Below are positions 15,048 to 57,330 of a DNA stretch of 64,000 bases, piece by piece; position 1 is the stretch's first letter, and each line of letters opens with the position of its first letter. A program made the position numbers and the translations under genes. The DNA is from Rhabdophis nuchalis. Its lineage: Eukaryota > Chordata > Lepidosauria > Squamata > Natricidae. Under the pieces are notes generated by a model, which did not search any database, was not told the DNA's origin, and worked only from the letters and a program-made list of their open reading frames with translations. The DNA is taken from positions 201,597,962 through 201,661,961 of the forward strand of contig CM077644.1 in NCBI GenBank assembly GCA_039707465.1. Direction: 5' to 3'.

Positions 15048-15532
15048 GCTCTGCTTGGTCCAATTTAGTACAATACTATTAATACTGATTAGCAGCAGTC
15101 TTTCTGGATTTACAGCAAGAAGCTTCCATGAAAATACCTAGATTTAAATCAGGGATTATTATTATTTTTGCATGCCAGGAAGATGTTCTGCTTCTAAATA
15201 AGCAATAGTGCTTCATTTCTACAATAGGATTCCATAATATTCAGCAATATAGGTAATATTAAAACTAATCTATAAAGATGGGTATAATTATTTTAGCTAT
15301 TTTATGTGTTAATCAGGAAGCCAGATATTTTAGTATGAAGAGAAATCTGAAAATAAATCAACAGGAAGAAAATGGGGTTACAGTGCATCAGAGATGTGTA
15401 ACCTTTTTCCAGCTGTGTTGTTGTGTTGTTAGGTAGTATACAAAGGATGGTATACCAAGGATTTCAAGACAAAATAGATGCATATAATTTTTTTTCCAGT
15501 TAAGTTAAAAAATAAATTAGTTCTAAGCTTAC
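15048..15532. other. LNPEP intron 2, exon-2 proximal part
   Basis: AT-rich, no recognised feature. Confidence 0.5.
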
Positions 15533-16373
15533 CTTGTTGAGTTGTTATTCTTAAAGGCAATTTTGTAAAAGCCAGAGTAAGTGTCTGATAAATTAGAGGA
15601 ATATTCTATGTTGATCTTATATTTATGTCCTATAAGAAGAGCTTCTGGAGCTATAATTGCAATCTGGTCATTCATTGGGTATTCCAGGAAATCAGCTGGT
15701 TTTGGCTGGCTTGAACCCAGTGCAGCAAATGTTACCTTGGTAATATTAAGCTTTGAACTATGAAGTATAACATGCATAGTAACCTGGTTAACTTCCACAG
15801 TTATTTGGACAGAACCTGTAAATCTCATTGTGGTTAGATTTGGCTGCAGAAAAATATCATAATGTTTTGGAACAACAAATTCTGGAAGCCTAAAACGAGC
15901 CCATGGAAATGGTTTCCCATTAGTTGCCAAAGGATATATATCTTCAATTGTGTGGTTTTTGTTGTGACAACCTTCTTTGGTAAAAGTGCACTTGGGCAGA
16001 AGATAGATTGCCATTATTACGGAGACAGCAATCACAAGGACAACTGCACAGATTATTGTGGTCCTTACAGATGGAGCGGAACACGATCCATCTGAACGTT
16101 GCCTATAACCAGCCATATTACTTCGTAGACCAGTACTTCTATTCATGAAAGACATTCCCAGAAGTTTGGCTGATGACGATTCATAATCCTCTTCATCCTC
16201 ATCCATTTCATGATCTCCAAGACCACGTACAAGAAGACGAGAACTTCTTGGTTCATATTCTACCTCATCGGGCTCCAAAGGATGCAAGCTAGGCTCTTTA
16301 GCCAAGTCAACCACATCAGGCTCTTCCTCAAACATGCTGTTTTCAATCATATTTCTAGGTAACTGAACTCGAT
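15533..16373 (-). CDS. LNPEP: LNPEP coding exon 2 (cytosolic tail, membrane anchor, start of ectodomain)
   Basis: This 841-bp exon has acceptor TGTTTCTTAG and donor AAG|GTAAGC. It begins with the last two bases of an Asp codon started in exon 1, then RVQLPRNMIENSMFEEEPDV. The cytosolic tail has both dileucine sorting motifs next to acidic clusters (RSSRLLVRG about residues 51-58, and SSAKLLGMS about 74-82, after DEDEEDYES). In mammals these direct IRAP to the insulin-responsive GLUT4 vesicles and endosomes. One transmembrane segment lies at about residues 113-133 (IICAVVLVIAVSVIMAIYLL), giving a type II protein. The ectodomain starts with CTFTKEGCHNKN, a stalk, then FPWARFRLPEFVVPKHYDIF of the N-terminal beta domain. 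Several NxT/S sequons are present. Codons before RVQLP in this frame are intronic. Confidence 0.97.
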
Positions 16374-16697
16374 CTAAGAAACACAAAAGCAGCATGTTAC
16401 ACAAAAAGTAACTGAAATAGCTGTGTTTTTTATTATTTTACATATAGCTGATAAAAATTGGGGTTCATATTATTGTTCTCATATAAGAAACTATTTGTAA
16501 TGCATATGTAAAGTAACAATTCAAATAGTTGTTGTAATAGCTGATGAAAAAATGGATGAATCAACATTCTTTGGTGATTTCTTCATAATGAAAATGAATG
16601 ATCATAGGTAAGGTTAAATAGAGCATACAATTCAGAATGGATATAACATCACATCAACAGAAAACTACTTGCAAAGTGGGAATTCTATAGTCTAGAG
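16374..16697. other. LNPEP intron 1, exon-2 proximal part
   Basis: AT-rich, no recognised feature apart from the splice acceptor. Confidence 0.5.
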
Positions 16698-27004: not shown

Positions 27005-28899
27005 TTGAAAATAGAGACAAAAAGATAACAGGGTGATATTAAAAGTGAGGCTCAGAATGAATATTAGGAGGAATTTCCTGATAATAACACAGGTAAATCT
27101 GCCAGAACCATTATAATCTTTCCCATTAAGGAAATTTCAGATAGGGGTTAGATGGCTACCTCTCAGGAATCTGGAGCAGATGATTGGATTAAATAGTCTA
27201 TAAAATTACTTCCAATCCTATAATTATAATTCTAGACAAGAGATCTAATTGTTGCAAGAATGCTATCTATATAAATGTTTTTATTTAATCCCTGCAATTT
27301 TATTTTATGTAAATTCCAATTCTTACCTCAATGTATGCTAAACTCCTTAATCCCAGATAACTTTTGCAACAGTTTTTTGCAACAGCTACAATAAATGATT
27401 TCAAGTTATATGACTAATTTAAAAAGTCTTACAATGTTTTTCCTCAGGCCCAATTGGTTCACAGAATATATCACAAAGCAGTAGAAAATCTGGATTTAAT
27501 TAATCTAACCTTAATGCTTCATAGTAAAGATCACTTCACCTTCCTTGAGGTGAGTTCATCAATATGTCCATGTGGTTTCCTTGGTCTGCCTTTTTTTCCC
27601 TAACATTTTTTTCCAGACTTCCCAATCTAGTATTTAAACTGAGGAATCTCATGAAGATTACCATCCCAATAGATACGTCATTCAACCCTACTTAGTTTCT
27701 AATCCAAGTGATTAGCCAGATGCTGACACCAATTGATGCTTTTTAAAATCTAGAAATTAGTAAATAAACAAAAAATGTATTTAAAGATGTACCTTGCGAC
27801 AAAAAATAGATTGTTAATAACCCAACCAATATTCACTGTTCATTGTAACAAACAAATAAAGACAATACACCTACTTTAAACAATCATTCCACAAATAAAT
27901 TCTAAATAGGACATTAGTATTTTTCCTACTTTATTCAATCTTCTGTGATCAAAACTGAGATTTCTTAAAAATGTCTTAGCAAATTACCAATAAAAGGGAA
28001 TATTTGCAGCTCTGGGTTGAAATGAGGGGTTCTTGGTGCTCAGATTGATTGTTTTCTTAGAATATCCCCTAGGAGATATTTCTATATGTTTACCAGGATA
28101 TTTCCTTTATGAAAAAGCTTTGGCTCATTGATTAGCATTAAAATATATTCCCATGTAACATTGATTTCAAGATTCCAGGGTTTTTTTTACTCTAAACTGC
28201 TGCATTTTTAAATATCCGTTGCATTCTACAATTGAATTATATCTGGTAACTAAATTCTAAATAACATGGATTGTAACCCCACCATCATACCTAATCATAT
28301 AAAAAATTAAAGCTTTTACATATTCAAATTACTGAACTGAATCCCCATGAAACCTTCACTAATCATAAACTAAAGTTCAAACCCTCCCACAAAGAATTCA
28401 AGTTGTTCTTGCTATTTTATCAACATGATAAGCCAAATGAGAATTGCTGTTGATATTGCCTAAACAGCAGTAGCCATCATCTTTGAATTAAAACTCCTGC
28501 TTGGGAATGGGGAACCTTCTCTTGGCCCAGTTTCAAGAGACAGTTCCTTTTCCAATCAGCTTCTGGACACCTCCAGTCAGACCCTAGAAAAGCTGAGCTG
28601 CAGAGCCCAATAAATAGGAAAGAAAACATTTAAGAAAAAAGAAACTCAATAAGTCAGAAAGCATTTGCATCACTTTAGATGCATTTGGCTCCCGGCCAAA
28701 GACAGGTGTTGACAGAGATTCCCTCCTCCTCTCCAAAGGAGGAGGATTTCCTTGCCTTTCAAGTCTCTCCAATTCTAAGGGCGCTTGTGAAAGGCTAATA
28801 TCTGGATGCAATTATCAACATGTGCTCTTTTTACATGGTACTTCCCCTCTCAGAAATTATTTGTTGTGCCCCATAGCCCCTAACTGATGTATCCACTTT
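27005..28899. other. LNPEP intron 1, promoter-proximal part
   Basis: AT-rich; small open frames (for example near 28584-28811) have no family resemblance. No mobile element boundary was recognised. Confidence 0.45.
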
Positions 28900-29950
28900 A
28901 CGGGTCGGGTTTATTCTCCCCGCATCTCAGGAAGCCAAACGCGATCCGTGAAAACTTACTGCTCGACCCGCGAGACCTTTTCGGTAGGCGGCGGGGGGGA
29001 GAGGGGGGGAGACGTCCTTCCACCAAACTTTCCACCGGCGACTCCCAGGCTGTCACTGTATTAGCAACCTTACCTTCACGGCTTTCTACGGGAATAGGTG
29101 GGGTTTGTACGAGACGGCGAGGCCACCTTCGCCCCAACATACCTGGGGGCGCGGAGGGGGGGGGGGGAAAGAAGACTCCTCGGAGCCGGCTGTTTCTTAA
29201 AAGCGCGCGGCCTTTAGATTTCAGGAAGTTTGACGCCGGGCCGTGGCCTCTTTTGAACGACCGCCTGAGGGTCGGAGGTGGGGGGGGTCGTTCTGCTGTA
29301 ACTAGAGGTCCTCCAGCAGCAGCAGCCTGGAGGAGTCAGGTTACCGCTGGCGCGCGGGAAGGCCAGAAAGGGGACTGCTTTTACTCACCGCTACTGGAGA
29401 AGGACTCCATTTTCCTCCTCCGGCGAGAGGCGAGCCAAAACACGAAAAAGGCGGAAAGGCAGTCAAGAACACGTCCGAAACCAAAACAAACAAAAAGCAG
29501 AAGCCGCCGCGGCTCCTCCTCACACCTTGGCCTGTTCCTCCCCCTCCTCCTCCTCCCGCAGCTGCATGTTACCGAGGCGGACGCGCCTGCCGGCCCTTTG
29601 CGGTCCTAAGGCGACTTCTTGCAGCCTCTGTCGCCGCTGCCTACAGAATAACAAGCCCTATGACGGGAGCAGGAGGACGGCCTCGGGAGGGAGCGCTGGT
29701 CCGCTGCCCACTCCGCTCGCTTCCCCTCCCAGCCAAACGACTCTGGCGGCTCGATGTCGAGGGCAGGCACAGTCCTCAACCATTTTCTGCTTCCCAGCTT
29801 CTCCGATCCCTCCCCTGCTTAGGGATGGGCTGTTTAGCGGCCGCCGAGGCCACCTCCTCTCAACGCTTCGGGACCCGCTTGAGGAGGCCTACGCAAGTGG
29901 CTAAATCTAGGGGCGACTGCGCCTGATCCAGAGAGTCTTGGGGAGCCTTT
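28900..29950 (-). promoter_or_regulatory. LNPEP: CpG island, LNPEP promoter and 5' UTR region
   Basis: GC and CpG content rise abruptly against the AT-rich flanks (many CG dinucleotides, for example around 28970-29150, 29200-29520 and 29570-29900). The island contains the first coding exon of LNPEP, so transcription should start within it, upstream of 29410 on the minus strand. No TATA box was seen, as usual for CpG-island promoters. Long open frames on both strands are due to composition. Confidence 0.8.
29389..29410 (-). CDS. LNPEP: LNPEP coding exon 1 (22 coding nt)
   Basis: On the minus strand the sequence reads GGAAA-ATG-G with a strong Kozak context, then MESFSSS and one base (G) before a consensus donor GTGAGTAA. 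Joining that G to the AT at the start of exon 2 gives Asp, producing MESFSSS-D-RVQLPRN. Mammalian LNPEP starts with a comparable short peptide (MEPFTN) before DRLQLPRN, with the same intron position. Phase, donor, context and peptide agree, so this assignment is firm although the exon is far too short for ORF detection. Confidence 0.88.
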
Positions 29951-31142
29951 TTCCCCCCGGATGAACAAGGGGTCCCCTTCCCACCGTTTGGAGCCCCCCG
30001 CTGTCTCTTAATAGGATTGGAATCAAGTCGAGCTGAGATGCGAAGTTTCACTTAGAAAGGCTTAATTTAATTTCGGGTTCAGGCCCCAACAGTTTAATAT
30101 AAACGTGTTTTTCCAGATTCTTTTTTTCCTTCCATGTTTTAGGATGTTTGCTGCCTCTCTCCTCTTTTTACCCCTTGAATTTAAAGCCAGTAAAATTCTC
30201 ATCAAGTGGGCAACATCTCAAACCAAAGAAAGAGATGGTAGTAAATCATATATAGACAGGCGGTAAAAGGATTGCTGCTTGTTGGGTTTTGGCAGTGCTG
30301 TGGTGTCTCAAAGCTGTGCAAGGAGTAATATACCCCAAGGAAAGCCATCCCCCCCAACCCCCCAATATGCATAAATAAACTGTCATCCTGCTTTTTTCAT
30401 AGTTGCTGAAACACAAGGAAATCTGCCAGGAGAAGAAATCCTTTTTTTAAATAATTCCCAGACTTGCTCTTTGTTTACAGATAAATCTGTTCCTGAATTT
30501 ATTCTTTTTACAATTGTAATTTGCTATTAAATTGTAACCTGATGGAACCCAAAACACTTCAGAAATAGTAATGTGAACTTGCTTAAACTAGCTGTCTAAA
30601 TTCTCAATTATAATTCTTAGTTACAATTATCCTTAGTTGCAATATATCCTTGTATATAAAGGATTTATAGACATTCACCTTCATCTCTTCTTGTAATTTA
30701 AAACACATTTTACTATCTTCTTGGAGTTCTTGGAAGCTCACACCACCAATCAAAATGAGGAAACACAATCCAACCATTACAGCAGCAAAAAGTAACAGTC
30801 TGTCTATGGATGCTTCCTCCCAAAAGGAAGGTCTTTACCAATGCAACAATGGGACAAGATTCCCTAAAGCACATTCCAGAACACAGTCATAACCACCAAA
30901 TAGCCTCTATGAATCCTGCCAGATGAATTTTGATGACTACATGTAAATTCCATTGATGTTGCCAAGATATATCCGGTATCAGTCTGACTCTTCTACTGAT
31001 GCATATGTTTTGTAAAGAGATAACAAGAACTCCAGTTATCCAGTTGACTACAATATATTTTTTTTCTTTTGACTAGCTATATTTGTTATAGGCAATGAAC
31101 AATTCAAAGTACTACATTGATGCTTACTTGATACACTTTTTT
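29951..31142. other. Intergenic sequence upstream of LNPEP
   Basis: Leaves the CpG island and becomes AT-rich. No gene, exon or repeat boundary was recognised. Confidence 0.5.
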
Positions 31143-38478: not shown

Positions 38479-38673
38479 CAGTGGTTCTCAACCTGTGGGT
38501 CAGGACCCCATTGGGGGTCGAACGACCCTTTTACAGGGGTTGCCTAAGACCATCGGAAAACACATATTTTCAAAAAAATACGGAAAACATAAAATAATTT
38601 TATCGTTGGGGGTCAACACAACATGAGGAACTGTATTAAAGGGTCGTGGCATTAGGAAGGTTGAGACCCACTG
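38479..38673. mobile_element. SPIN-like hAT MITE (195 bp) with perfect target duplication
   Basis: It starts CAGTGGTTCTCAACCTGTGG, then GGGGGTCGAACGACCC, CAGGGGTTGCCTAAGACCAT and CGGAAAACACATATTT, and ends AGGTTGAGACCCACTG. This series of blocks is that of the SPIN hAT family known from many tetrapods. It is flanked by a perfect 8-bp duplication, GTCTAGAA (38471-38478 and 38674-38681). Confidence 0.85.
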
Positions 38674-39650: not shown

Positions 39651-39752
39651 CTCTATACCAGTGGTTCCCAACTTGTCTGTGTGTATGCATGGGTTTTTTT
39701 CCAGGTATAGTATGGGGTAAACAGATTTTAAGAAAATAACATTTCATTACAG

Positions 39753-39907
39753 ATCTAGCAGCTGTTCCAGATTTTCAGTCTGGTGCAATGGAGAATTGGG
39801 GATTGACCACGTACCGGGAAGCTGCTTTGTTATATGATTCTGAAAAATCCTCAGTATCAAGGAAACTTGGAATTACTATGACAGTAGCCCATGAACTTGC
39901 TCACCAG
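39753..39907 (+). pseudogene. ERAP1: Orphan ERAP1 exon 6 copy (intact frame)
   Basis: The 155-bp segment has acceptor CATTACAG and donor CAG|GTATAT, the same length and phase as LNPEP exon 6. It encodes (G)[35 protein letters not shown] and [18 protein letters not shown]. It agrees with human ERAP1 exon 6 at 46 of 52 residues by manual comparison (human sequence from memory), clearly more than with ERAP2 or LNPEP. It keeps the GAMEN motif (39782-39796) and the HELAH zinc motif (39890-39904). Yet it lies 19 kb upstream of ERAP1's own start codon, with none of exons 2-5 or 7 nearby. It is therefore a displaced duplicate, probably non-functional, and could only be used as a cassette exon of some other transcript. 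Confidence 0.85.
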
Positions 39908-40087
39908 GTATATTGTAGTTTGCTTTTATTATATGACATTGAAGGTTATATTTTAATTATCTGGACAACAACTCCTTCTGAAATCAGAGAAGTAGCATCA
40001 TTTGACCATTACTTTGTGACACTTATATCAATGACTCAAGCCAGCATGTATGATTTTTTTTTCTCATAAAGCTAACAGAATCTACAG

Positions 40088-40312
40088 CTGTGGTTCCCAA
40101 CATGGGGCCCATGCCCCACAGGGGGGTGATTTTATTTTTAATGGGGGCAATTTGAACCTTGTTTAAACTAAGTTAATGGCCTTTTAGGCTTCCTCCACAT
40201 GAGTAGAGTACACTTTCTGAGTAAAGTTAAGAATTATATGTCATGAGGGGGGGGGGTCAGGATTTTAGAGATGCTTAGGTAGGGCATGGCCAAAAAAGGT
40301 TGGGAACGACTG
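40088..40312. mobile_element. Short hAT element forming the right end of the composite
   Basis: The left end is CTGTGGTTCCCAACATGGGG (second base off the CAG consensus), with blocks CCCATGCCCCACAGGGGGGT and AATGGGGGCAATTTGAACC. It shares its right end with the composite. The octamer before its left end is ATCTACAG, which does not match the CTCTATAC after its right end. That mismatch is what the composite-transposition model predicts. Confidence 0.7.
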
Positions 40313-40320
40313 CTCTATAC

Positions 40321-43259: not shown

Positions 43260-46200
43260 GAGTTTGCGCATGCGCGGAATGGAGGTCCGATTCTGAAGGC
43301 AGGGCGGGGGCCGGGGGCTGTTTTGCCCCAGGGGAATGTCGCCAGCCCTCACTGACCATCTCCGAGGGCTGGCCCAGCAAGGCTACATGCCAGTCGTCAC
43401 ACCGGGCCGTTTTGGAGACGGAGGGTGAGCCGAGTGTGTGACGGCGAGGCGAAGAGCGAGGAGAAGGCCCGAATCGGCCTGTTCGGCCTAGCGCGTCCCC
43501 GGCTTGCCAGGAAGTAGGAGGAGGCAGGCCTGTGAGGCCGGGACGCTGGAGGCAAGCGAACGGCCGGGCGGAAGGGAGGATTTTCCATCGGGCTGCACGA
43601 GTGGATGGGAGATCGTGCAGCCTACATCCGACCCCGACCCGAGTGTTCCCTACCTGATCCGGGGCTGGAGCGGCTGCGAACAACGGCTGCAGATGGAGAA
43701 GCTGGAACGGAGAGAGGAGGTGAGAGGAAGGAGAGAGGATGTGAGAGGAGAGATTGGAAGAGAGGAAACGTGTGGAGAAGGGATGGAAAGGAGGAAGGAG
43801 GAAGAAGGAAAGAAGGAGAGGAGAGATTGGAAAGAGAAAGGAGAAGGAGAAAGAAGGAATGGAACGGAAATAGAAACGGAAGGAAGGAGTGAAGGAGCGA
43901 ATGGAAGGAGAGGAGGCCAAGCAGCCAAGCAGCCGGATCGTGGAGTGGTGGAACTTTGGCCGAGGAGGACTGGGAGTGAGTGCATGGGACTGGAGGAGGT
44001 AAGCCAAGCCTGCACATGGCAGCATTTACCATCAGGCCGTGCAGTGGACCATCTAGCTGCACGGCACTAAATGCAGACTGAGGCCTGTGTGGCTGAAGAG
44101 GGCAGATGGATGGGGCCCTTTAAAGGGGCTGAACTGCGATCTTTCCCATCTGCCGGACTTTCTTTTGGACTATCTTTTGGACTATCTGACTTTACCCCTC
44201 CTACCCCTATGGATTTACCTCTATGGACTTACCATCTCCTATTATTTGCACTGTACACTGCCACTTTACTCCTGCACTTTATCTGGACTCTTTCTAACTA
44301 ACTAATTAACTAACTAAACATTAACTTGCAATTACGTTCCCCTGGTTTATGCAGCCTCCATGTTCCCCTAGAAATGTATTCGAGGCGTGACCTCCTTTGC
44401 CTGCGAGATTCTGCCCTCTCGCAGGCTTGGCCCCCTAGTTTAACTCGGGCCCACCTCGAAGATGGAGTTATTGCTCCTGAGAGGTGGGCGAAGCGCAAGC
44501 TCAGGGGGTTTCTTTGTAATTTTTTAATTCGGATTTTAGGGGGTTCCAGGGTTGGGGTGGGGGAGGGGTCTAAAAAAAGATATAGACAGATGGAGACGGA
44601 AGCAACGATCAATAGTAAGGGCCAGGATAGCAGTCGACGGCGGGAAGCGGAAGGCGAAAGGAAGGGGGATACCCGAGTCGTTCCTCAGGAGGGCTTACCA
44701 ATTCAGAGGGTCGTGGGGAGGGGCAGGACCGAGGGGAGACAATTCTCATCCTCCCGGTTGGTGGCACGCAGCCGTTGGTTACAAACGGTCGGGTGCCACA
44801 ACCCCCGCAGGCTAGGTGGCCAGGGAATACAGAGCCAGGGTCTGCGGCTGATGTTCTGCAACGCCAGGTCCGTTGTCAACAAAGCCCCCCTCATTAGTGA
44901 CCTTGTGTCAGAGGGGGAGCCGGACCTGGTAGGAATTGCGGAGACCTGGTTGGGCCCCGAGGGAGGTCATCCCCTCGTTGAAATGTGCCCACCAGGCTAC
45001 CGCGCATTTCATCAGCCGCGGGCCCTAGGCAGGGGTGGCGGGGTAGCGGTCATTATTAAGGAAGGCCTGGAGCCGAGAGAGTCCATTGTGCCTCAGACCT
45101 CCGGCTGTGAGTCCCTCTGCATGAAGTGGGGCCTAGGGAGGCAGTTGGGCTTGCTGGTTGTATACCTGGCTCCCCGCTATGTAGCAGCAGCCCTGCCCGA
45201 GCTCCTCGAGGTGATCGCTACGGTGGCAGTGGAGACCCCCAGACTTATAGTCATGGGGGACTTTAATCTGCCATCGTTGGGCGAATCATCCGTGGTAGCT
45301 CGGGAGTTCATGGCTTCCATGACGGCCATGGACCTGACCCAAGTAATTCAAGGCCCCACCCATGAGGGTGGACATACGCCGGACCTCATCTTTGTCTCGG
45401 GCCAATGGAAGAGTGATCTGGGTACAGGGGATATAGTCATCACACCCTTGTCATGGTCAGACCACTCACTTCTCCGACTCGACTTTCCGACCGCTGCTCC
45501 CCTCCGCGGGGAGGCGGAACCAGAGTTACCAATCTGGTACCGCCCCAGGCGCTTGATGGACCCGGACGGGTTCCAGACAGCGCTTGGGCCATTTCCTGTA
45601 TCCCTGACCCGCGCCCCGATGGAGGACCTCACGGCCGCATGGAATAATGCGGCCGTGGGAGCCTTAGATCGGGTCGCGCCCTTGCGGCCTCTCTCGCGGC
45701 GGCGAACCACCCTGGCTCCTTGGTTTACTGAGGGGCTGCGGGTGATGAAACGCCGCAAGAGATGCCTAGAGAGAAGGTGGAGGGCTAGCCGCTCTGAATC
45801 TGACCGGACACAGGTAAGAGCCCATTTACGGACTTACATTGTGGCGCTGAGGGTGGCCAAACGTCACCATTGTGCTACCCTCATAGCATCCGCAGAAAAC
45901 CGCCCTGCCGCCCTGTTTAGGGTGACCCGTTCTCTCCTTCATCAGAGGGAGCGGGAAGCCCCGCTACAGGGTAGAGCAGAGGAATTTGTGATTTTTCTGC
46001 AGGAGAAAACCGCCCAGATACAGAGTGAGCTAGCCCCCATTCATGGCCCAGTGGGATGCCACGAGAGAGATCTTGTTTGGGAGGAGTTTGACCCCGTTAC
46101 TTCCGAGGATATGGACAGGCTACGTGGGCGACTGCGAGCCACCACATGTTCATTGGACCCGTGCCCCTCCTGGCTTGTACTGGCATCCTGGGAGGTGACA

Positions 46201-47839
46201 CGAGGCTGGCTCCAAGAGGTTATCAACGCATCCTTGAGTGAGGGTTCCTTGCCTGCCTCCCTAAAAGAGGCTATGGTGAGGCCCCTCCTCAAGAAGCCCT
46301 CTTTGGACCCAGCTCTTTTGAACAACTACCGTCCAGTCTCCAACCTTCCCTTCTTGGCGAAGGTTGTTGAGAGTGTGGTGGCACAACAGTTTCCCCGTCA
46401 CCTGGAGGAAGTTGACTATCTAGATCCGCGCCAGTCCGGCTTTCGGCCCGGGCATAGCACCGAGACGGCATTGGTCGCGTTGGTAGATGATCTCTGGAGG
46501 GCCAGAGATGGGGGATGTTCCTCCATCCTGGTCCTATTAGACCTCTCGGCGGCTTTCGATACCATCGACCATGGTATCCTATTGCATCGGCTGGGGGGGT
46601 TGGGGGTGGGAGGCACCGTTTTGCGGTGGTTCTCCTCCTACCTCTCTGGCCGATCGCAATTTGTGCGGGCAGGAGAGCAGAGGTCGACCCCGAGACCCCT
46701 CACATGCGGGGTGCCTCAGGGGTCGGTCCTCTCGCCTCTCCTGTTTAATGCATACATGAAGCCGCTGGGTGAGATCATCCGTGGTTTTGGGGTAGAGTAC
46801 CATCTGTACGCTGATGACACCCAGCTGTACATATCTACCCCAGACCACCCCAACGATGCCGTAGCGGTGATGTGCCAGTGCCTGGAAGCCGTGCGGATCT
46901 GGATGGGAAGTAACGGACTTAGGCTCAACCCGACCAAGACCGAGTGGCTGTGGTTTCCGGCTGCCCGATTCAACCAGCTTTCTCCAACGCTGGCCATAGG
47001 GGGCGAATATCTTGCCCCTGTGGATGGGGCGCGCAATTTGGGTGTCCTCCTGGATACCCGGCTGTCTATGGAAGAGCAAGTGACAGCCGTGGCCAGGAGG
47101 GCGTTTTACCAGGTTCGCCTGGTTCGCCAATTGCGCCCCCTATTGGATCGGGACGCCCTTCGCACAGTCACCCATGCCCTCGTGACATCCCGACTGGACT
47201 ATTGCAACTCTCTCTACATGGGGCTCCCCTTGAGGTGCACCCGGAGGCTTCAGTTAGTTCAGAATGCGGCCGCGCGAGCAATTATGGGCACCTCCAGGTT
47301 TGCCCATGTAACACCGCTCCTGCGCGAGCTGCACTGGCTACCTGTCGTCTTCCGGGTGCGCTTCAAGGTGTTAGTTATCATCTTCAAAGCGCTCCATGGC
47401 TCGGGACCTAGCTATCTGCGAGATCGGATCCTGCCCCACACATCCTCACGACCGATTCGCTCCCACAGAGAGGGGCTTCTCCGGGTGCCGTCCACTAGAC
47501 TTTGTCAGCGGGCGACGCCCAGGGGAAGGGCGCTCTCTGTGGCGGGCCCGGCCCTCTGGAACGACCTTCCCCCTGATATTAGAACGACCACCGACCTCCG
47601 CTCCTTCCAGGTAAAATTGAAGACCCATCTCTTTCGACTGGCCGGCCTTGAATAGTTCTCTCTGTCTTTTAATTACAAATTTTAATGGGTTTTAATTATA
47701 TATTTTTAGCATAGGTAGATTTATTTAATTTTATTTTAAGTAATGTTTGTATTTTGTATATTGTTTTTAATTATGCCTGTGCACCGCCCCGGGTCCCTGT
47801 GGGGAGAGGGTGCGGTTAATAAATCTTAATTTGAATTTG
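43260..47839 (+). mobile_element. Inner full-length L2-clade LINE (4.58 kb)
   Basis: It begins GAGTTTGCGCATGCGCGGAA at 43260 with a GC-rich 5' region that includes a GA-rich purine stretch (about 43690-43900). It carries the ORF at 44326-47655 and ends in a short 3' UTR with AATAAATCTTAATTTGAATTTG. The outer L2 is broken exactly here, with the 4-bp sequence AGGT on both sides (43256-43259 and 47840-47843) as a probable target duplication. A separate ORF1 could not be recognised in the 5' region. Confidence 0.88.
44326..47655 (+). CDS. L2 ORF2p: AP endonuclease and reverse transcriptase (1109 aa)
   Basis: An uninterrupted reading frame. Residues 1 to about 180 are basic and poorly conserved, and the true start may be internal. 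The apurinic-type endonuclease follows at about 184-400, with LMFCNARSVVNK, AETWLG, VYLAPRY, MGDFN (D about 312) and WSDHSLL (D379, H380). The reverse transcriptase is at about 620-890, with [63 protein letters not shown] and YADDTQLY (YADD about 828-831). A C-terminal domain follows with RLDYCNSLYMGLPLRC and [21 protein letters not shown] is typical of the L2 branch of CR1-group LINEs. All catalytic residues are present, so the copy could be active. Upstream ATGs make the N-terminus uncertain. Confidence 0.9.
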   Translation: MQLRSPGLCSLHVPLEMYSRRDLLCLRDSALSQAWPPSLTRAHLEDGVIAPERWAKRKLRGFLCNFLIRILGGSRVGVGEGSKKRYRQMETEATINSKGQDSSRRREAEGERKGDTRVVPQEGLPIQRVVGRGRTEGRQFSSSRLVARSRWLQTVGCHNPRRLGGQGIQSQGLRLMFCNARSVVNKAPLISDLVSEGEPDLVGIAETWLGPEGGHPLVEMCPPGYRAFHQPRALGRGGGVAVIIKEGLEPRESIVPQTSGCESLCMKWGLGRQLGLLVVYLAPRYVAAALPELLEVIATVAVETPRLIVMGDFNLPSLGESSVVAREFMASMTAMDLTQVIQGPTHEGGHTPDLIFVSGQWKSDLGTGDIVITPLSWSDHSLLRLDFPTAAPLRGEAEPELPIWYRPRRLMDPDGFQTALGPFPVSLTRAPMEDLTAAWNNAAVGALDRVAPLRPLSRRRTTLAPWFTEGLRVMKRRKRCLERRWRASRSESDRTQVRAHLRTYIVALRVAKRHHCATLIASAENRPAALFRVTRSLLHQREREAPLQGRAEEFVIFLQEKTAQIQSELAPIHGPVGCHERDLVWEEFDPVTSEDMDRLRGRLRATTCSLDPCPSWLVLASWEVTRGWLQEVINASLSEGSLPASLKEAMVRPLLKKPSLDPALLNNYRPVSNLPFLAKVVESVVAQQFPRHLEEVDYLDPRQSGFRPGHSTETALVALVDDLWRARDGGCSSILVLLDLSAAFDTIDHGILLHRLGGLGVGGTVLRWFSSYLSGRSQFVRAGEQRSTPRPLTCGVPQGSVLSPLLFNAYMKPLGEIIRGFGVEYHLYADDTQLYISTPDHPNDAVAVMCQCLEAVRIWMGSNGLRLNPTKTEWLWFPAARFNQLSPTLAIGGEYLAPVDGARNLGVLLDTRLSMEEQVTAVARRAFYQVRLVRQLRPLLDRDALRTVTHALVTSRLDYCNSLYMGLPLRCTRRLQLVQNAAARAIMGTSRFAHVTPLLRELHWLPVVFRVRFKVLVIIFKALHGSGPSYLRDRILPHTSSRPIRSHREGLLRVPSTRLCQRATPRGRALSVAGPALWNDLPPDIRTTTDLRSFQVKLKTHLFRLAGLE

Positions 47840-50706
47840 AGGTAGGGGTGGGGGGGTGGCGATTATCGTTAAGGAAGGTCTTGAGCCGAGAGAGACCACT
47901 GTACCACAGATGACCGGTTGTGAGTCCCTCTACGTGAAGTGGGGCCTTGGAAGGCAGTTGGGCGTGTTGATTGTATACCTGGCTCCCCACTATGTAACAG
48001 CAGCCCTGCCCGAGCTCCTTGAGGTGGTCGCCAAGATGGCGGTTGATACCCCCAAACTACTAGTCATGGGGGATTTCAACCTGTCATCGGTAGGCGAGAC
48101 ATCCGAGGTAGCTCGGGTGTTCATGGCCTCCATGACGGCCATGGACCTGACCCAAGTAGTTCATGGCCCCACTCACGACGGAGGACACACTCTGGATCTA
48201 ATTTTTGTCTCTGGACAGTGGAGGAATGATCTGGGAATAGGGGATTTAGTCACCATACCCTTGTCATGGACAGATCACGCTCTCCTTTGGCTGGACTTTC
48301 CAATCATCGCACCCCACCGCAGGAAGGCGGAACCAGAGATCCCAAGATGGTTCCGCCCCAGGTGCCTGATGGACCCAGAAAGGTTCCAGAGGGAGCTTGG
48401 GCCATTACCTGTGTCCTTGATGCGCGACTTGACTGAGGACCTTGTGGCTGCATGGTATAGTGCGGCCATGGGGGCCTTGGACCGGGTCACGCCCTTGCGG
48501 CCTCTCACGCAGCACCGAATCACCCAGGCTCCCTGGTTTTCCGAGGAGCTGAGGGAGATGAAATGCCGCAAGAGTAGGTGGAGAGTAGGTGGAGATCCTC
48601 TCGGTCCGAATCTGACTGAACACTAGTAAGATCCCATTTGACGACATCTAGTGGCGATAAGAGTAGCCAAATGTGATTATTGTGCCACTCTTATCGCATC
48701 CGCAGATAACCGCCCTGCTGCCCTGTTTGGGGTGACCCGCTCCCTCCTTCATCAGAGGCTGCGGGAAGCCCCTTTGCAGGGCAGAGCAGAGGAATTTGGA
48801 GAGTATCTGCAGGATAAAATCACTCAGATTCGGAGCGAGTTGCTCCCCACTGAAAGTGGTCTGGAGGGATTGTCCGATGCAGATCTTGAGACAATATCAT
48901 GGGAGGAGTTTGACTTTGTCACTACCGAGGATATGGACAGGTTGTCGAGGAGACTTAAGGCCACCACATGTTTATTGGACCCGTGTCCCTCCTGGCTTGT
49001 ACTGGCATCCTGGGAGGTTACACGAGGCTGGCTCCAGGATATAGTGAATGCCTCTTTGAGTGAGGGGTTCTAGCCTACCACCCTGAAAGAGACGGTGGTG
49101 AGACCCCTCCTCAAGAAGCCTTCCCTGGACCCAGCATTGTTGGTAAATTATCATCCGGTCTCCAACCTCCACTTTTTAGCGAAGGTTGTAGAGAGTGTAG
49201 TGGCACAGCAGTTTCCCCGTCACCTGGAGGAAGTTGATTATGTAGACCCACGCCAGTCCAGCTTCCGACCCGGGCACAGCACCAAGACTGCATTGGTTGC
49301 ATTGGTGGATGATCTCTGGAGGGCGCGGGATAGAGGGTGCTCCTCTATCCTGGTCCTATTAGACCTCTCAGCGGCTTTTGATACCATCGACCATGGTATC
49401 CTATTGCACTGACTGGGGGGGTTGGGCGTGGGAGGCACCATGCTACGGTGGTTCTCTTCCTACCTCTCCGGTCGGTCGCAATTCGTGTTGGCAGGAGGGC
49501 AGAAGTCGACCTCGAGACCCCTCATATGTGGGGTACCTCAGGGCTCGGTCCTCTCGCCACTCCTGTTCAACACTTATATGAAGCCGCTGGGCGAAATCAT
49601 CCGCAGTTTTGGGGTAGAGTACCATCTGTACGCTGACGACACTCAGCTGTACATATCTACCCCAAACCACCCCAACGATGCCGTTGAGGTGTTGTCCTGG
49701 TATTTGGAGGCCGTACGGGTTTGGATGGGGAGTAACAAACTCAAACTCAACCCGTCCAAGACCGAGTGGCTGTGGTTTCCGGCGTCCCGGTTTAGCCAGG
49801 TAAGTCCAACACTGGCCATAGGAGGCGAACTATTGGCCCCCGTGCAGAGGGCGTGCAATTTAGGTGTCGTCCTGGATTCCCGGCTGACCATGGAGGACCA
49901 TGTGACAGCCGTGGCCAGCGGGGCGTTTTACCAGGTGCGCCTGCTCCACCAATTGCTTCCCTTACTGGACCGGGACGCCCTTCGCACAGTCACTCAAGCA
50001 CTTGTGATATCCCGTCTAGACTACTGTAACACTCTCTACATGGGGCTCCCCTTGAGGTGCACTCGAAGGTTACAGTTAGTTCAGAATGCAGCCGCGCGGG
50101 TGATCAAGGGAGCCTCAAGGGAGTCCCATATAACACCTCTCCTGCGCGAGCTGCACTGGCTACCTGTGGCCTTCCAGGTGCGTTTCAATGTACTGATTAC
50201 CATCTTTAAAGCGCTCCACGGCACGGGGCCTAGTTATGTGCGAGACCGTCTCCTGTCCCACACATCCCTTCGACCGATCCGCTCCCATAGGGAGGGTCTT
50301 CTCCGGGTGCCATCAGCCGGACAATGCCGGTTGGCGACGCCCAGGGGAAGGGCCTTCTCTGTGGCGGGCCCTGCCCTTTGGAACGACCTACCCCCTGAAT
50401 TGCGTACCATCACCGACCTCCGCCTCTTCCGCCAGTGTCTAAAGACACATCTTTTTCAGCAAGCTGGCCTACCCTAACCTCCCGTGGGGACTATTTTAGA
50501 GAGTTTTAAATTGGGGATTTTAAAATTGGTTTTAGCATAGGACTAGAACAATTTAATATGCAATTTCTAGGACTAGAACAATTTTAATATGCTTTTAAAT
50601 TATGTATTTATTCTTTGGTATGCTTTTAAATTCCTGTGCGCCGCCCTGGGTCCTCTGCGGAGAAGGGCGGGATATAAATATGATTAAAATAAAATAAAAA
50701 TAAAAA
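47840..50706 (+). mobile_element. Outer L2 copy, 3' part (pseudogenised ORF2)
   Basis: It continues the copy interrupted at 43259, with GGGVAIIVKEGLEPRETTVP, endonuclease GDFN and the whole RT (YADD near 49630) in one overall frame. In-frame stops lie at 48627, 49071 and 49410, and there is a local frame disturbance at about 48575-48640. It ends with CCTGTGCGCCGCCCTGGGTC and GGCGGGATATAAATATG plus an A-rich tail near 50706. The lesions show that it is older than the inner copy. Confidence 0.88.
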
Positions 50707-50855: not shown

Positions 50856-53469
50856 ATTTATTTATTTATTTAAATTTATATCCCGCCCTTCTCCACAAAG
50901 GACCCAGGGCGGCGCACAGGAAATTTAAAAACATACAAAATACAATAAATATAATTTAAAAAACTATTAAATAAACCTATCCTGCGCTAAAACCAAAATT
51001 TAAAAACCCAATTTAAAACTACCTAAAAGTCCCCATGGGAGGTTAGGCTAGGCCGGCTTGTTGGAACAAATATGTCTTAAGACATTGGCGGAAGAGGCGG
51101 AGGTCGGTGATGGTACGTAATTCAGGGGGTAGGTCATTCCAAAGGGCTGGGCCCGCCACAGAGAAGGCTCTTCCCCTGGGTGTCGCCAGTCGGCATTGTC
51201 CGGCCGACGGCACCCTGAGAAGGCCCTCTCTGTGGGAGCGTATCGGTCTAAGGGATGTATGGGGCAGGAGGCGGTCTCGCATATAACTAGGCCCCGAGCC
51301 ATGGAGCGCTTTAAAGATAGTTGTCAAAACCTTGAAGCGCACTCGAAAAACCACAGGAAGCCAATGCAGCTCGCGCAGGATCGGTGTTATGTGGGAGCAT
51401 CTAGTGGCTCCCATAATCACACGCGCGGCTGCGTTTTGGACTAGCTGTAGCTTTCGAGTGCACCTCAAGGGAAGCCCCATGTAGAGAGCATTACAGTAGT
51501 CGAGTCGGGACGTCACGAGAGCTTGAGTGACTGTGCGAAGGGCAGCCCGGTCCAGTAAGGGGCGCAATTGGCGCATCAGGCGTACCTGATGAAATGCCCC
51601 CCTGGCCACGGCCGCCACATGGTCCTCCATGGATAGCCAGGAATCCAGGAGGACACCCAAATTGCGCGCCCTCTCCACGGGGGCCAATGTTTCGCCCCCA
51701 ATGGCCAGAGTTGGTGTAATCTGGCTGAACCGGGGTGCCGGAAACCACAGCCACTCAGTCTTGGCAGGGTTGAGCTTGAGTTTGTTACCACCCATCCAGA
51801 TCCGTACGGCCTCCAAACACCGGGACAGCACTTCGGCGGCATCATTGGGGTGGTTTGGGGTGGATATGTACAGCTGGGTGTCATCAGCGTACAGGTGGTA
51901 CTCCACCCCAAAACCACGGATGATCTCACCCAGCGGCTTCATATATGTGTTGAAAAGGAGGGGCGAGAGGACTGACCCCTGAGGAACCCCACATAAGAGA
52001 GGCCTCGAGGTCGACCTCTGCCCTCCCGTCAACACATATTGCGACCGACCAGAGAGGTAGGATGAGAACCACCGCAAAACGGTGCCTCCCAGCCCCAACC
52101 CCCCCAGTCGGTGCAATAGGATACCATGGTCGATGGTATCAAAAGCCGCCGAGAGGTCTAATAGGACTAGGATAGAGGAATAACCTCTATCCCGCGCCCT
52201 CCAGAGATCATCAACCAACGCGACCAATGCCGTCTCGGTGCTGTGACCGGGTCGGAAGCCGGACTGGCGCGGGTCTAGATAATCAACTTCCTCCAGGTGT
52301 CGCGGAAACTGTTGGGCTACCACACTCTCGACAACCTTCACCAAAAAGTGAAGGTTGGAGACCGGACGATAGTTCTCTAATAAAGCTGGGTCCAGGGACG
52401 GCTTCTTGAGGAGGGGCCTCACTACTGCCTCTTTCAAGACGGCAGCCAAGGACCCCTCACTCAAAGATGCGTTGACAATGCCCTGGAGCCAGCCTCGTGT
52501 CGTCTCCCAGGATGCCAGTACAAGCCAGGAGGGACACGGGTCCAATAAACATGTGGTCGCCCTAAGTTTCCTTGACAACCTGTCCATATCCTCGGTGGTA
52601 ACAAAGTCAAACTCCTCCCAAGAAGGAACCTCAAGACTAGTCTCGGACTGTCCCACAGGACCACTGTCGATGGAGGGTAGCTCATTCCGAATCCGAGTGA
52701 TTTTCTCCTGCAGATAAATCCCAAATTCCTCTGCTCGCCCTTGCAGAGGGGCTTCCCGCGGCCTCTGATGAAGGAGGGAGCGGGTCACCCCAAACAGGGC
52801 GGCAGGGCGGTTATCTGCGGATGCAATAAGGGTGGCACAATACTCACGTTTGGCCACCCTTATCGCCACTAAGTAAGCCCTAATATGGGTTCTCACTAGT
52901 GTTCGGTCGGCTTCGGAGCGAGAGGATCTCCATCTGCTCTCTAGGCATCTCTTGTGGCGTTTCATCTCCCGAAGCTCCTCAGTAAACCAAGGAGCCTGGG
53001 TGATTCGCCGCCGCAAGAGAGGCCGCAAGGGCGCGACTCGGTCCAAGGCCCCCGCGGCCGCACTTAACCATGCGGCCACTAGGTCCTCAGTCGAGTCGCG
53101 GGGCAGGGTCACAGGAATTGGCCCAAGCTCCCTCTGGAACCTTTCCGGGTCCATTAGAAGCCTGGGGCGGAACCATATAGGAATATCCGGTTCCGCCTCC
53201 CCGCGGTGAGGTGTAGCGATTGGAAAGTCCAGCCGAAGGAGAGCATGATCTGTCCATGACAAGGGAGTGATGGCTAGGTCCCCTATTCCTAGATCACAAC
53301 TCCACTGTCCCGAGACAAAGATGAAATCCAGTGTGTTTCCTCCCTCGTGAGTGGGGCCTAAAACTACCTGGGTCAGGTCCATGGCCGTCATGGAGGCCAT
53401 GAACTCCCGAGCTGCTCCAGAGGCTTCGCCTGCCGACGGCAAGTTAAAGTCCCCCATGACTACCAGTCT
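50856..53469 (-). mobile_element. Minus-strand L2 copy, 5'-truncated, inserted in another L2 tail
   Basis: On the plus strand it starts with the complement of the A-rich tail (TTTATTTATTTAAATTTATA TCCCGCCC). It runs through the 3' UTR and the ORF to a truncation just upstream of GDFN at about 53469. It separates two halves of a plus-strand L2 3' UTR. The coding part is intact. Confidence 0.85.
51043..53457 (-). CDS. L2 ORF2p fragment: end of endonuclease plus complete RT (804 codons)
   Basis: The frame is open from MGDFNLPSAGEASGAAREFM to the natural stop. It keeps the endonuclease end (SWTDHALL), [63 protein letters not shown] and YADDTQLY. The endonuclease N-terminus is lost by 5' truncation, so this copy cannot move on its own. 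The lack of stops over 2.4 kb indicates recent insertion. The C-terminal 177 residues are almost the same as those of the copy at 1-770. Confidence 0.88.
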   Translation of the reverse strand: MGDFNLPSAGEASGAAREFMASMTAMDLTQVVLGPTHEGGNTLDFIFVSGQWSCDLGIGDLAITPLSWTDHALLRLDFPIATPHRGEAEPDIPIWFRPRLLMDPERFQRELGPIPVTLPRDSTEDLVAAWLSAAAGALDRVAPLRPLLRRRITQAPWFTEELREMKRHKRCLESRWRSSRSEADRTLVRTHIRAYLVAIRVAKREYCATLIASADNRPAALFGVTRSLLHQRPREAPLQGRAEEFGIYLQEKITRIRNELPSIDSGPVGQSETSLEVPSWEEFDFVTTEDMDRLSRKLRATTCLLDPCPSWLVLASWETTRGWLQGIVNASLSEGSLAAVLKEAVVRPLLKKPSLDPALLENYRPVSNLHFLVKVVESVVAQQFPRHLEEVDYLDPRQSGFRPGHSTETALVALVDDLWRARDRGYSSILVLLDLSAAFDTIDHGILLHRLGGLGLGGTVLRWFSSYLSGRSQYVLTGGQRSTSRPLLCGVPQGSVLSPLLFNTYMKPLGEIIRGFGVEYHLYADDTQLYISTPNHPNDAAEVLSRCLEAVRIWMGGNKLKLNPAKTEWLWFPAPRFSQITPTLAIGGETLAPVERARNLGVLLDSWLSMEDHVAAVARGAFHQVRLMRQLRPLLDRAALRTVTQALVTSRLDYCNALYMGLPLRCTRKLQLVQNAAARVIMGATRCSHITPILRELHWLPVVFRVRFKVLTTIFKALHGSGPSYMRDRLLPHTSLRPIRSHREGLLRVPSAGQCRLATPRGRAFSVAGPALWNDLPPELRTITDLRLFRQCLKTYLFQQAGLA

Positions 53470-53577
53470 AATGATGTATATTGTTTTTTGTTATGGTTTT
53501 AATAATGCCTGTGCGCCGCCCTGGGTCCTAACAAGGAGAAGGGCGGGGTATAAATCCGGGGGGAAAAAATAGAATAA
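53470..53577 (+). mobile_element. L2 3' UTR fragment, right half
   Basis: TATTGTTTTTTGTTATGG, CCTGTGCGCCGCCCTGGGTC and GGCGGGGTATAAAT make a plus-strand L2 3' terminus. It fits as the continuation of 50740-50855. The insertion duplication could not be defined exactly. Confidence 0.65.
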
Positions 53578-56286: not shown

Positions 56287-56421
56287 CAGGGGTCCCCAAC
56301 CTTTGCAACTTTAAGTCTGAAGGACTTCAACTCCCAGACTTCTCCAGCCAGCGAAGCTGGCTGGAGAAGTCTGGGACCTGAAGTCCTTCAGACTTAAAGT
56401 TGCAAAGGTTGGGGACCCCTG
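56287..56421. mobile_element. Palindromic hAT MITE upstream of ERAP1 CpG island
   Basis: 135 bp that is almost wholly an inverted repeat: arms of about 65 bp start CAGGGGTCCCCAACCTTTGC and meet at a few-base centre near 56354. It is flanked by a perfect 8-bp duplication, ATCTAGGT (56279-56286 and 56422-56429). The near-perfect arms imply a strong hairpin and a young copy. Confidence 0.92.
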
Positions 56422-56429
56422 ATCTAGGT

Positions 56430-57330
56430 CATGGTGGTCCCAAAGGTGCTTTTTCAGTGGGCAACTGGACTTTCTTGCTTTTTTCCTTTGAATATCTTGC
56501 GCTTCTCATTCAAGAAGCTTCTTCAGACCCCTGGTTTAGAGCCCGCTCGCGTACGGCGCCTCAAGAGGCTGAGCTGGACAAGCACCTTCCGCGCCGTTTC
56601 GCTTTCACTTTTCCTTGTGAAGCCAAGTCTGGGCGGCAAGGGAGCGGCAGCGACGGTGGTGGTGGTGGCGGCTGTCTTGGTTGGAGCAGGTAAAAAAAGG
56701 AGTCCCTATTAAAGGCTTGTCCTGAGGCAGAAGGAACGTAGGCAGAAGAGGGAAATAACATTCGTGGAAAGGAGAAAGGGCGTTAGTTCTGAAGCCGAGG
56801 CCTAATTTCCCTCCCTTGAACTATCATATTTCAATATTGAAAGCGAGGACTCCATTACGCATGCTCACTTTTGGTGCCTTGCGAAGCGCCTCCGCTCTAC
56901 AAAATTGCTCTCGTGGCGGAGGTTTTTCGCTCCCTTTCTGCTGTGCTGAACTGACCCCTGAGCCTGAGGGCTTAGGTCGGATAGTCCCCAATTTGCGAGG
57001 CTTGCCCTGGCCGCTGTGCATCGTCTTTAACCGATACGATTCCGGTACGGTATAGGAACCGACGAGAAACTGGCAGTGGTTTGTGGTTATTCTACGTCGA
57101 CTTTTGCTACGGCGCTTCTCTTTCTCCCAACCCCCCCCCCCCCTATACACACACACTATTGTGTTTTCGTAGCACACTCAACTACCAGGTAGCAAACCGC
57201 ACTTTAGCGTGCAAGTATCGTGTGGTGTGAATCCGAGCGGCGTAATTCATTCTTCGCGAGAAGCTTAGAAAATTGGGTCTGTGCATTATATCGTGCAAAC
57301 GCAGTCCAATTGGATCTGGGGAGTCCCTAC
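56430..57330 (+). promoter_or_regulatory. ERAP1: CpG island, presumed ERAP1 promoter and 5' exon
   Basis: CG-dense sequence (for example 56545-56690 and 56860-57060) lies about 1.3-2.2 kb upstream of the first coding exon. It would contain the transcription start and a non-coding exon 1. A possible donor is GCAG|GTAAAA at 56690. No TATA box was recognised. An ISRE-like site lies at 56596-56614. Exon 1 limits cannot be set without transcripts. Confidence 0.7.
56596..56614. promoter_or_regulatory. ISRE/IRF-element-like site
   Basis: The plus strand reads GTTTCGCTTTCACTTTTCC. The complement contains three GAAA cores in phase (GGAAAAGTGAAAGCGAAAC), of which GAAAGCGAAAC matches the GAAANNGAAAC ISRE core exactly. 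It sits in the ERAP1 CpG island just upstream of the possible exon 1 donor. ERAP1 is known to be interferon-inducible in mammals, so a functional role is plausible but untested here. Confidence 0.6.

Follow-up and report, generated by a model that had tools for sequence, protein, structure and literature searches.

A putative single-copy Pack-hAT carrying a copy of ERAP1 exon 6 between LNPEP and ERAP1 in Rhabdophis nuchalis

How could an exon of ERAP1 come to lie between the ends of a hAT transposable element, upstream of the gene from which it seems to derive? This question is raised by a short segment (39651-40320) of the window, i.e. of the whole stretch of 64,000 nucleotides that was analysed (C2:201597962-201661961 of a 1.92 Gb assembly). 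The window contains a divergent gene pair, with LNPEP on the minus strand and ERAP1 on the plus strand, and the segment is located between both. The locus was extended by five 10-kb stretches reaching 49 kb beyond the window, with the window numbering continued to 113000, and exon numbers follow the original prediction and not a gene annotation. The large exon of LNPEP corresponds to the open frame 15529-16437 on the minus strand, which we take to be LNPEP on account of its similarity to that protein. A probable LNPEP exon 1 was observed at 29390-29410 on the minus strand (MESFSSS followed by GT, in frame with exon 2) inside a CpG-rich stretch at 28751-30100; its coding start is presumably 29410. 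The first coding exon of ERAP1 begins at about 58.65 kb and has ERAP1 as its top PDB match (E 3.9e-48). One of the 25 CpG-rich stretches listed, at 56351-57250, is probably the ERAP1 promoter, and those at 43-53 kb overlap retrotransposon frames. No earlier report of the locus was found by title in the open-access literature on ERAP1, snake and duplication.

Re-examination of the segment confirmed the observation as real and well bounded: it is an ERAP1 exon captured between hAT ends. The unit measures 654 bp (39659-40312) and holds the ERAP1-type exon 6 within hAT ends and a perfect 8-bp duplication of CTCTATAC (Table 1). Direct reading and a repeat search both placed the left end CAGTGGTTCCCAACTT at 39659-39674 and the end of its inverted partner at 40312, with inverted arms (39654-39672 and 40299-40317) that are 84% complementary; the termini and the duplication, matching at 8/8 positions, are as originally described. 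The same applies to the intact 155-bp exon with GAMEN and HELAH, which is preceded by AG, followed by GT and free of in-frame stops, and for which a distance of 19 kb to the ERAP1 start had been given (18.7 kb when measured from 58650). Comparison of its 51 codons with solved structures revealed ERAP1 as the best match (E 4.5e-25), with ERAP2 (5.1e-16), aminopeptidase N (6.2e-16) and LNPEP (3.6e-15) behind it. A second, inner hAT left end had also been noted, and CTGTGGTTCCCAAC is indeed present at 40088 directly after ATCTACAG, but what begins there could be refined to a complete MITE of 225 bp. At the outer left end, no more than a 17-bp stub of this MITE family's type is present, and among 36 aligned MITE left ends two have its CTTG, in the form CTTGG. 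The cargo between the ends amounts to 412 bp.

Table 1. Features of the hAT-bounded unit in window coordinates.
Feature	Position	Strand	Basis
Left target-site duplication CTCTATAC	39651..39658	.	Identical to 40313-40320 (8/8)
hAT/MITE left-end stub, 17 bp, CAGTGGTTCCCAACTTG	39659..39675	+	Match to left end of MITE family
Copied 3' end of ERAP1 intron 5 (39676-39702 likely)	39676..39752	+	BLAST 39703-39752 and anchored extension 39676-39702
Copied ERAP1 exon 6, 155 bp, GAMEN and HELAH, open	39753..39907	+	Alignment to parent; best PDB match ERAP1
Copied 5' part of ERAP1 intron 6	39908..40043	+	Homology to parent, ending at 40043
44-bp filler ending in MITE-type target octamer ATCTACAG (40080-40087)	40044..40087	+	No extension into parent intron 6
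Complete hAT MITE, 225 bp	40088..40312	+	Genome copies of the family
Right target-site duplication CTCTATAC	40313..40320	.	Identical to left octamer

The parent of the captured exon was located in the same assembly. ERAP1 exon 6 occupies 66402-66556, 26.6 kb downstream of the copy, and is followed by exon 7 at 67320. BLAST aligned 39703-40043 of the copy to 66352-66689 of the parent with 313/341 identical positions (91.8%). On the right side, ERAP1 homology stops at 40043 with zero extension beyond. On the left side, an alignment anchored at 39703 reaches exactly 39676 (parent 66321), with 9 of 1000 shuffles being as good; a plain local alignment of 39674-39703 to parental intron 5 lacked significance, being equalled by 248 of 2000 shuffles. 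On this side, the 27 bp next to the stub, 39676-39702, are only weakly similar to the parent and were likely, but not certainly, copied from its intron 5. With them, the copied piece would span about 368 bp (39676-40043, against 369 bp at 66321-66689 in the parent). Copy and parent differ at 4 of 50 bases in the intron 5 part (39703-39752), at 15 of 133 aligned bases in the intron 6 part and at 6 of 155 bases, or 3 of 51 residues, in the exon. A genome search with the cargo returned the cargo itself, the parent and a 61-bp match to an LNPEP exon (3/3 candidates scored), and no second copy of the cargo was found in the assembly either by this search or by one with the whole unit. The exon match is not due to chance, because the identity extends over the true exon 6 and its flanks and the ends are those of a repeat family. 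These alignments support the reading that the hAT-bounded unit, with exon 6 and flanking intron, was copied from ERAP1 and stands outside any longer duplication. Relocation of the exon, as originally proposed, did not take place, since the parent exon is still in its position.

The inner MITE belongs to an abundant family. In the genome search with the whole unit, 40 matches out of 1260 candidates were scored; these were the unit, the parent and 38 MITE copies with 87-91% identity, so that another copy of the 654-bp unit, for which a search had been suggested, was not among them. Thirty-five other copies of the MITE were aligned, 28 from this search and seven from the eight loci of an earlier set (L007 gave no match), which makes the sample biased to close relatives of the query. 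An 8-bp duplication at the exact bounds was perfect in 13 of the 35 and matched at least 7/8 positions in 19, and one MITE copy, L038, carries CTCTATAC on both sides. The 8-bp target duplication and the TIRs conserved throughout the family place the MITE in the hAT superfamily. With the non-autonomous hAT MITEs that have CAGTGGTTCCCAAC-type ends it shares the TIR, the 8-bp duplication with a TCTA core, the length of 225 bp and the high copy number, whereas the foreign cargo distinguishes the present locus from ordinary MITEs of this type. The CAGTGGTTCCCAAC-type ends are Charlie-like. The octamer ATCTACAG is very probably a true former target site, with its right-hand partner missing, because it fits the left-flank preference of the family better than CTCTATAC does (0.075% against 0.8% of window octamers score as high). 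The inner MITE differs by 5.8% from the majority of the 35 others, which themselves differ by 4.4-17.9% (median 6.7%). Because the introns of copy and parent differ at 19/183 sites, or about 5% per lineage, the capture and the activity of the MITE family appear to be of similar age, and the biased copy sample allows only this much to be said.

Neither of the unit's outer structures could be found at the corresponding borders of the parent. The parental sequence is ...TATATTAGATGTCTC at the left border, where a hAT end is lacking, and ...GACTCAAGCCACAGAGAG at the right border, where both the 44 bp and the MITE are lacking. Between about 57 and 78 kb, the extended locus contained no end differing from CAGTGGTTCCCAACTT at 3 or fewer positions, and a search of the whole 113 kb at E up to 0.1 gave no second copy of the inner MITE. 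The other 630 bp of intron 6 matched only themselves in the genome (1/1 candidates; simple repeats and very common words skipped), so no repeat insertion is seen displacing the missing part. A different hAT of another family (L009, 331 bp at 65860-66190, with an intact GCATAGAG duplication) precedes the parent exon by 0.2-0.5 kb and is presumably part of ERAP1 intron 5; its ends differ from those of the unit and it lies 130 bp outside the copied stretch (66190 against 66321). At the left joint, inspection by eye showed that TG is common to the MITE (positions 16-17) and the parent, a microhomology of 2 bp. Where the copy departs on the right, the parent reads GCC-ACAG-AGAG, and ACAG equals the last four bases of ATCTACAG, a weak hint of a MITE lost from intron 6.

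For the 44-bp filler, local alignment to the 112 kb that make up the rest of the locus reached a score of 30 at best (opposite strand, about 91.5 kb), and this match was rejected as a source since the score is just above the 23-29 of ten shuffles. The filler 25-mer at 40063-40087 matched only itself in the genome within 2 mismatches; two more sites appeared at 3 mismatches, and one of them, L048, was discarded as it has no MITE downstream.

The most plausible origin, and one that we regard as probable, is that the unit represents a single-copy Pack-hAT, in which a break in a resident MITE, or its excision, was repaired by template-switch copying of nearby ERAP1 DNA. The MITE now bounded by CTCTATAC holds the copied end of intron 5, exon 6 and the start of intron 6, and it would have been resident at this octamer before it was broken or excised and repaired. 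Synthesis primed by the right part of the MITE could have proceeded through a complete MITE of the same family up to its left octamer ATCTACAG, onward over the 44 bp and, further to the left, across ERAP1 exon 6 as far as intron 5, after which the new strand would have been joined to the leftover 17-bp left end via the TG microhomology. Two templates can be envisaged. Either ERAP1 intron 6 then carried the MITE and the 44 bp, which the parent would since have lost as one deletion of about 275 bp, or two templates served in turn, a MITE locus elsewhere and then ERAP1. Repair by copying is favoured by the aligned parent, by the left homology reaching the inner edge of the stub, by the single-copy cargo and the TG joint, by the parent having no matching hAT end and by the fit of ATCTACAG to the target preference of the family. 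Against it, a source of the filler was not found, so that one has to assume either a further template or a deletion that occurred afterwards in the parent; the break would lie at the extreme end of the element, and the MITE is complete, unlike the interrupted one of a plain gap fill. The distance of 26.6 kb and the weak likeness of 39676-39702 to the parent also count against it.

Tentatively, and with rather less confidence, homology between MITEs may have steered the capture, the broken resident MITE having paired with a MITE of the same family in intron 6 that was later lost. The complete inner MITE suggests such a way for repeat homology to choose the captured sequence. If this is true, the choice of the captured exon is governed by repeats, the intact MITE inside the unit, together with its octamer, is the mark of the process, and ERAP1 intron 6 of related species should hold the 44-bp filler, with ATCTACAG at its end and AGAGTG directly following. 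A single 27-kb stretch displays the parent, the copy, the element family, both target octamers and both joints, and therefore the competing origins, repair by copying and mobilised neighbours, are separable with a few related genomes. No functional conclusion can be drawn for ERAP1 itself.

The comparison with known captures followed the definition of Pack-TIRs by Tan et al. 2021 (PMC8277862), with the ends compared with the 35 MITE copies in place of a curated consensus and BLAST used for BLAT. This definition asks that either flank cover 10 bp or more of the terminals of one TIR element, and the unit has 17 bp on the left and the whole MITE on the right. Its internal 412 bp fall within the range of 100-5000 bp, the identity to the parent exceeds the required 90%, and the length ratio (368 against 369 bp, or 412/369 = 112% with the filler) lies within 80-120%. 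The top parental match is unique, as the cargo search returned only the short LNPEP exon match besides the unit and the parent. Concerning the 100 bp on each side of the parental copy, which by the definition should hold no TE, the right one matches only itself in the genome, and on the left the nearest hAT recognised in a scan for hAT ends stops 130 bp away. A retrocopy is not involved, since intron was copied on both sides of the exon. The two source elements that a composite should have beside the donor DNA were not found at the ERAP1 locus, and the several copies with distinct duplications that mark a multicopy mobile Pack-TIR are replaced here by a single one.

According to the same study, single-copy Pack-TIRs arise mostly via gap filling with nearby templates favoured; 59.8% of animal Pack-TIRs are intrachromosomal, the distance is <15 kb in 56.9%, microhomology with a median of 2 bp is present at one or both breakpoints in 67.6%, and breakpoints are moderately skewed to the inside of the element (PMC8277862). 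The single copy, the same chromosome, the 26.6 kb, the unbounded parent and the TG joint of the unit fit this pattern, while its break at the very end and a distance above 15 kb set it apart. The original prediction considered gene capture by TIR elements to be rarely shown in vertebrates; with 370 Pack-TIRs, 208 of them hAT, counted in 100 animal genomes (PMC8277862), their documentation is better than this suggests. The single-copy animal Pack-hATs of Tan et al. likewise have hAT ends, an 8-bp duplication, a gene piece of the same chromosome, a parent not bounded by an element and 2-bp microhomology at one joint, and the ERP44 case likewise holds an exon plus part of its introns. The unit differs from them in its complete second MITE with its own octamer, the 44-bp filler, the 17-bp left remnant and the parent 26.6 kb away. 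Ssk-FB4 of Drosophila melanogaster, as presented in PMC8277862, also combines 2-bp microhomology with an insertion at the other breakpoint (45 bp, de novo), but it comprises a near-complete gene that is multicopy and expressed, whereas the unit is one exon in one copy. The plant Pack-TYPE elements (Pack-CACTA) formed by mobilisation of neighbouring insertions, as described by Gisby and Catoni 2022 (PMC8903248), share with it the inner TIR, a spacer of unknown origin and the captured gene piece; in contrast, the unit is single-copy and from an animal, the genome search gave no shorter or longer forms with the cargo, and a donor pair was not found. The kind of capture is thus known as Pack-TIR capture, and what is new is a single ERAP1-exon Pack-hAT with an informative inner MITE.

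Among the other origins, an unlikely one is the fusion of neighbouring insertions away from the ERAP1 introns, in which an ERAP1-bearing element and a second MITE at ATCTACAG lost their inner ends by decay and the outer ends then moved to CTCTATAC. It would account for the intact MITE inside the unit and the target octamer to its left, for the spacer and for the perfect outer duplication, and AB-type fusions with spacer DNA of unknown origin are described for plants by Gisby and Catoni (PMC8903248). However, the capture must then have been an event of its own, the donor must have disappeared and the inner right end must have been lost, no other cargo copy or donor was found in the assembly, and a landing 26.6 kb from the parent needs local hopping or chance.

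The route favoured in the original prediction, two hATs in ERAP1 introns 5 and 6 that moved jointly and took exon 6 with them, must be regarded as very doubtful. The alignment to both introns upheld ERAP1 as the source but argued against this route, since the parent has no matching MITE ends at either border, and the interpretation as a whole is only partly supported. The outer ends, the inner end and the outer duplication have the architecture expected of such a composite, and the ACAG that the parent has at the right border may be what an insertion left behind when it was lost. Although a matching end may have been present near the parent exon in the past, none is there today, and the parent differs at both borders, so that two separate losses at the edges of the copy would be needed. 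The left end, of merely 17 bp, is not an element. In addition, cut-and-paste transposition removes the donor sequence unless it is repaired from the sister, and the parent exon would have gone with it.

It is highly improbable that the exon of the unit is in use, whether as a cassette or as a 5' exon joined by splicing to ERAP1 transcripts. Its frame is open with intact AG/GT, the exon is less diverged than the introns (6/155 against 19/183, Fisher p 0.035), and transcription is found for 30% or more of the Pack-TIRs profiled in three species (PMC8277862). Two of the three differing residues also agree with human ERAP1 in the copy (A at residue 2, S at residue 33), while the parent agrees at residue 4; a single outgroup gives this comparison little weight, and at residue 2 the parent shares its V with LNPEP of this genome. 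On the other hand, a constrained parent and a free copy predict 8-11 exon differences, and the six observed are not significantly below this number (P 0.31 and 0.09), which leaves selection on the copied exon unsupported. The unit is placed some 10 kb upstream of the probable LNPEP exon 1, and the CpG-rich stretch at 56.35-57.25 kb, the probable ERAP1 promoter, follows 16 kb after it. At donor position +4, the copy has T and the parent A. With its start in phase 1 and its end in phase 0, the exon would shift the frame if it were included in a coding intron. The mobile cassette with functional splice acceptor and donor that had been predicted finds no support, as one copy only was found and the 155 bp (2 mod 3) allow no in-frame addition; a functional or mobile cassette is therefore not a reading that these sequences support, and most likely the copied exon does nothing.

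In humans, ERAP2 sits between LNPEP and ERAP1. A PF01433 genome search (25 matches from 33 candidates) gave the captured exon as the only match between LNPEP and ERAP1, and no sign of ERAP2 in 16437-58600, where this exon was the sole match. When ERAP1 pieces 2, 6, 7, 8 and 9 (five exon pieces labelled by position) were compared by tblastn with the first 58.6 kb, the orphan exon and LNPEP exons were found, the rest having E above 0.2 and piece 8 having zero matches. A remnant of a longer ERAP1 or ERAP2-like duplication, with only exon 6 recognisable and a MITE inserted later, would agree with the place of human ERAP2 and with the ERAP1 strand, but it is hardly conceivable and was rejected, because ERAP1 homology stops inside the hAT ends, as a plain segmental duplication would not, no further PF01433 match, and no further match to the five ERAP1 exon pieces at E below 0.2, occurs between the two genes, and with copied introns about 90% identical the adjacent exons should be visible too.

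Further mobile elements were observed around the unit. Another hAT MITE of 195 bp, with a perfect GTCTAGAA duplication, lies 1 kb before it at 38479-38673. A 135-bp hAT at 56287-56421, with 20/20 matching terminal bases and a perfect ATCTAGGT duplication, overlaps the edge of the CpG-rich probable promoter region of ERAP1. A frame of 1113 codons without stops at 44314-47655 shows reverse-transcriptase-like motifs and was judged by eye to be a non-LTR retrotransposon, and frames resembling it, broken or inverted, are found at 47841-50477 and 51043-53490.
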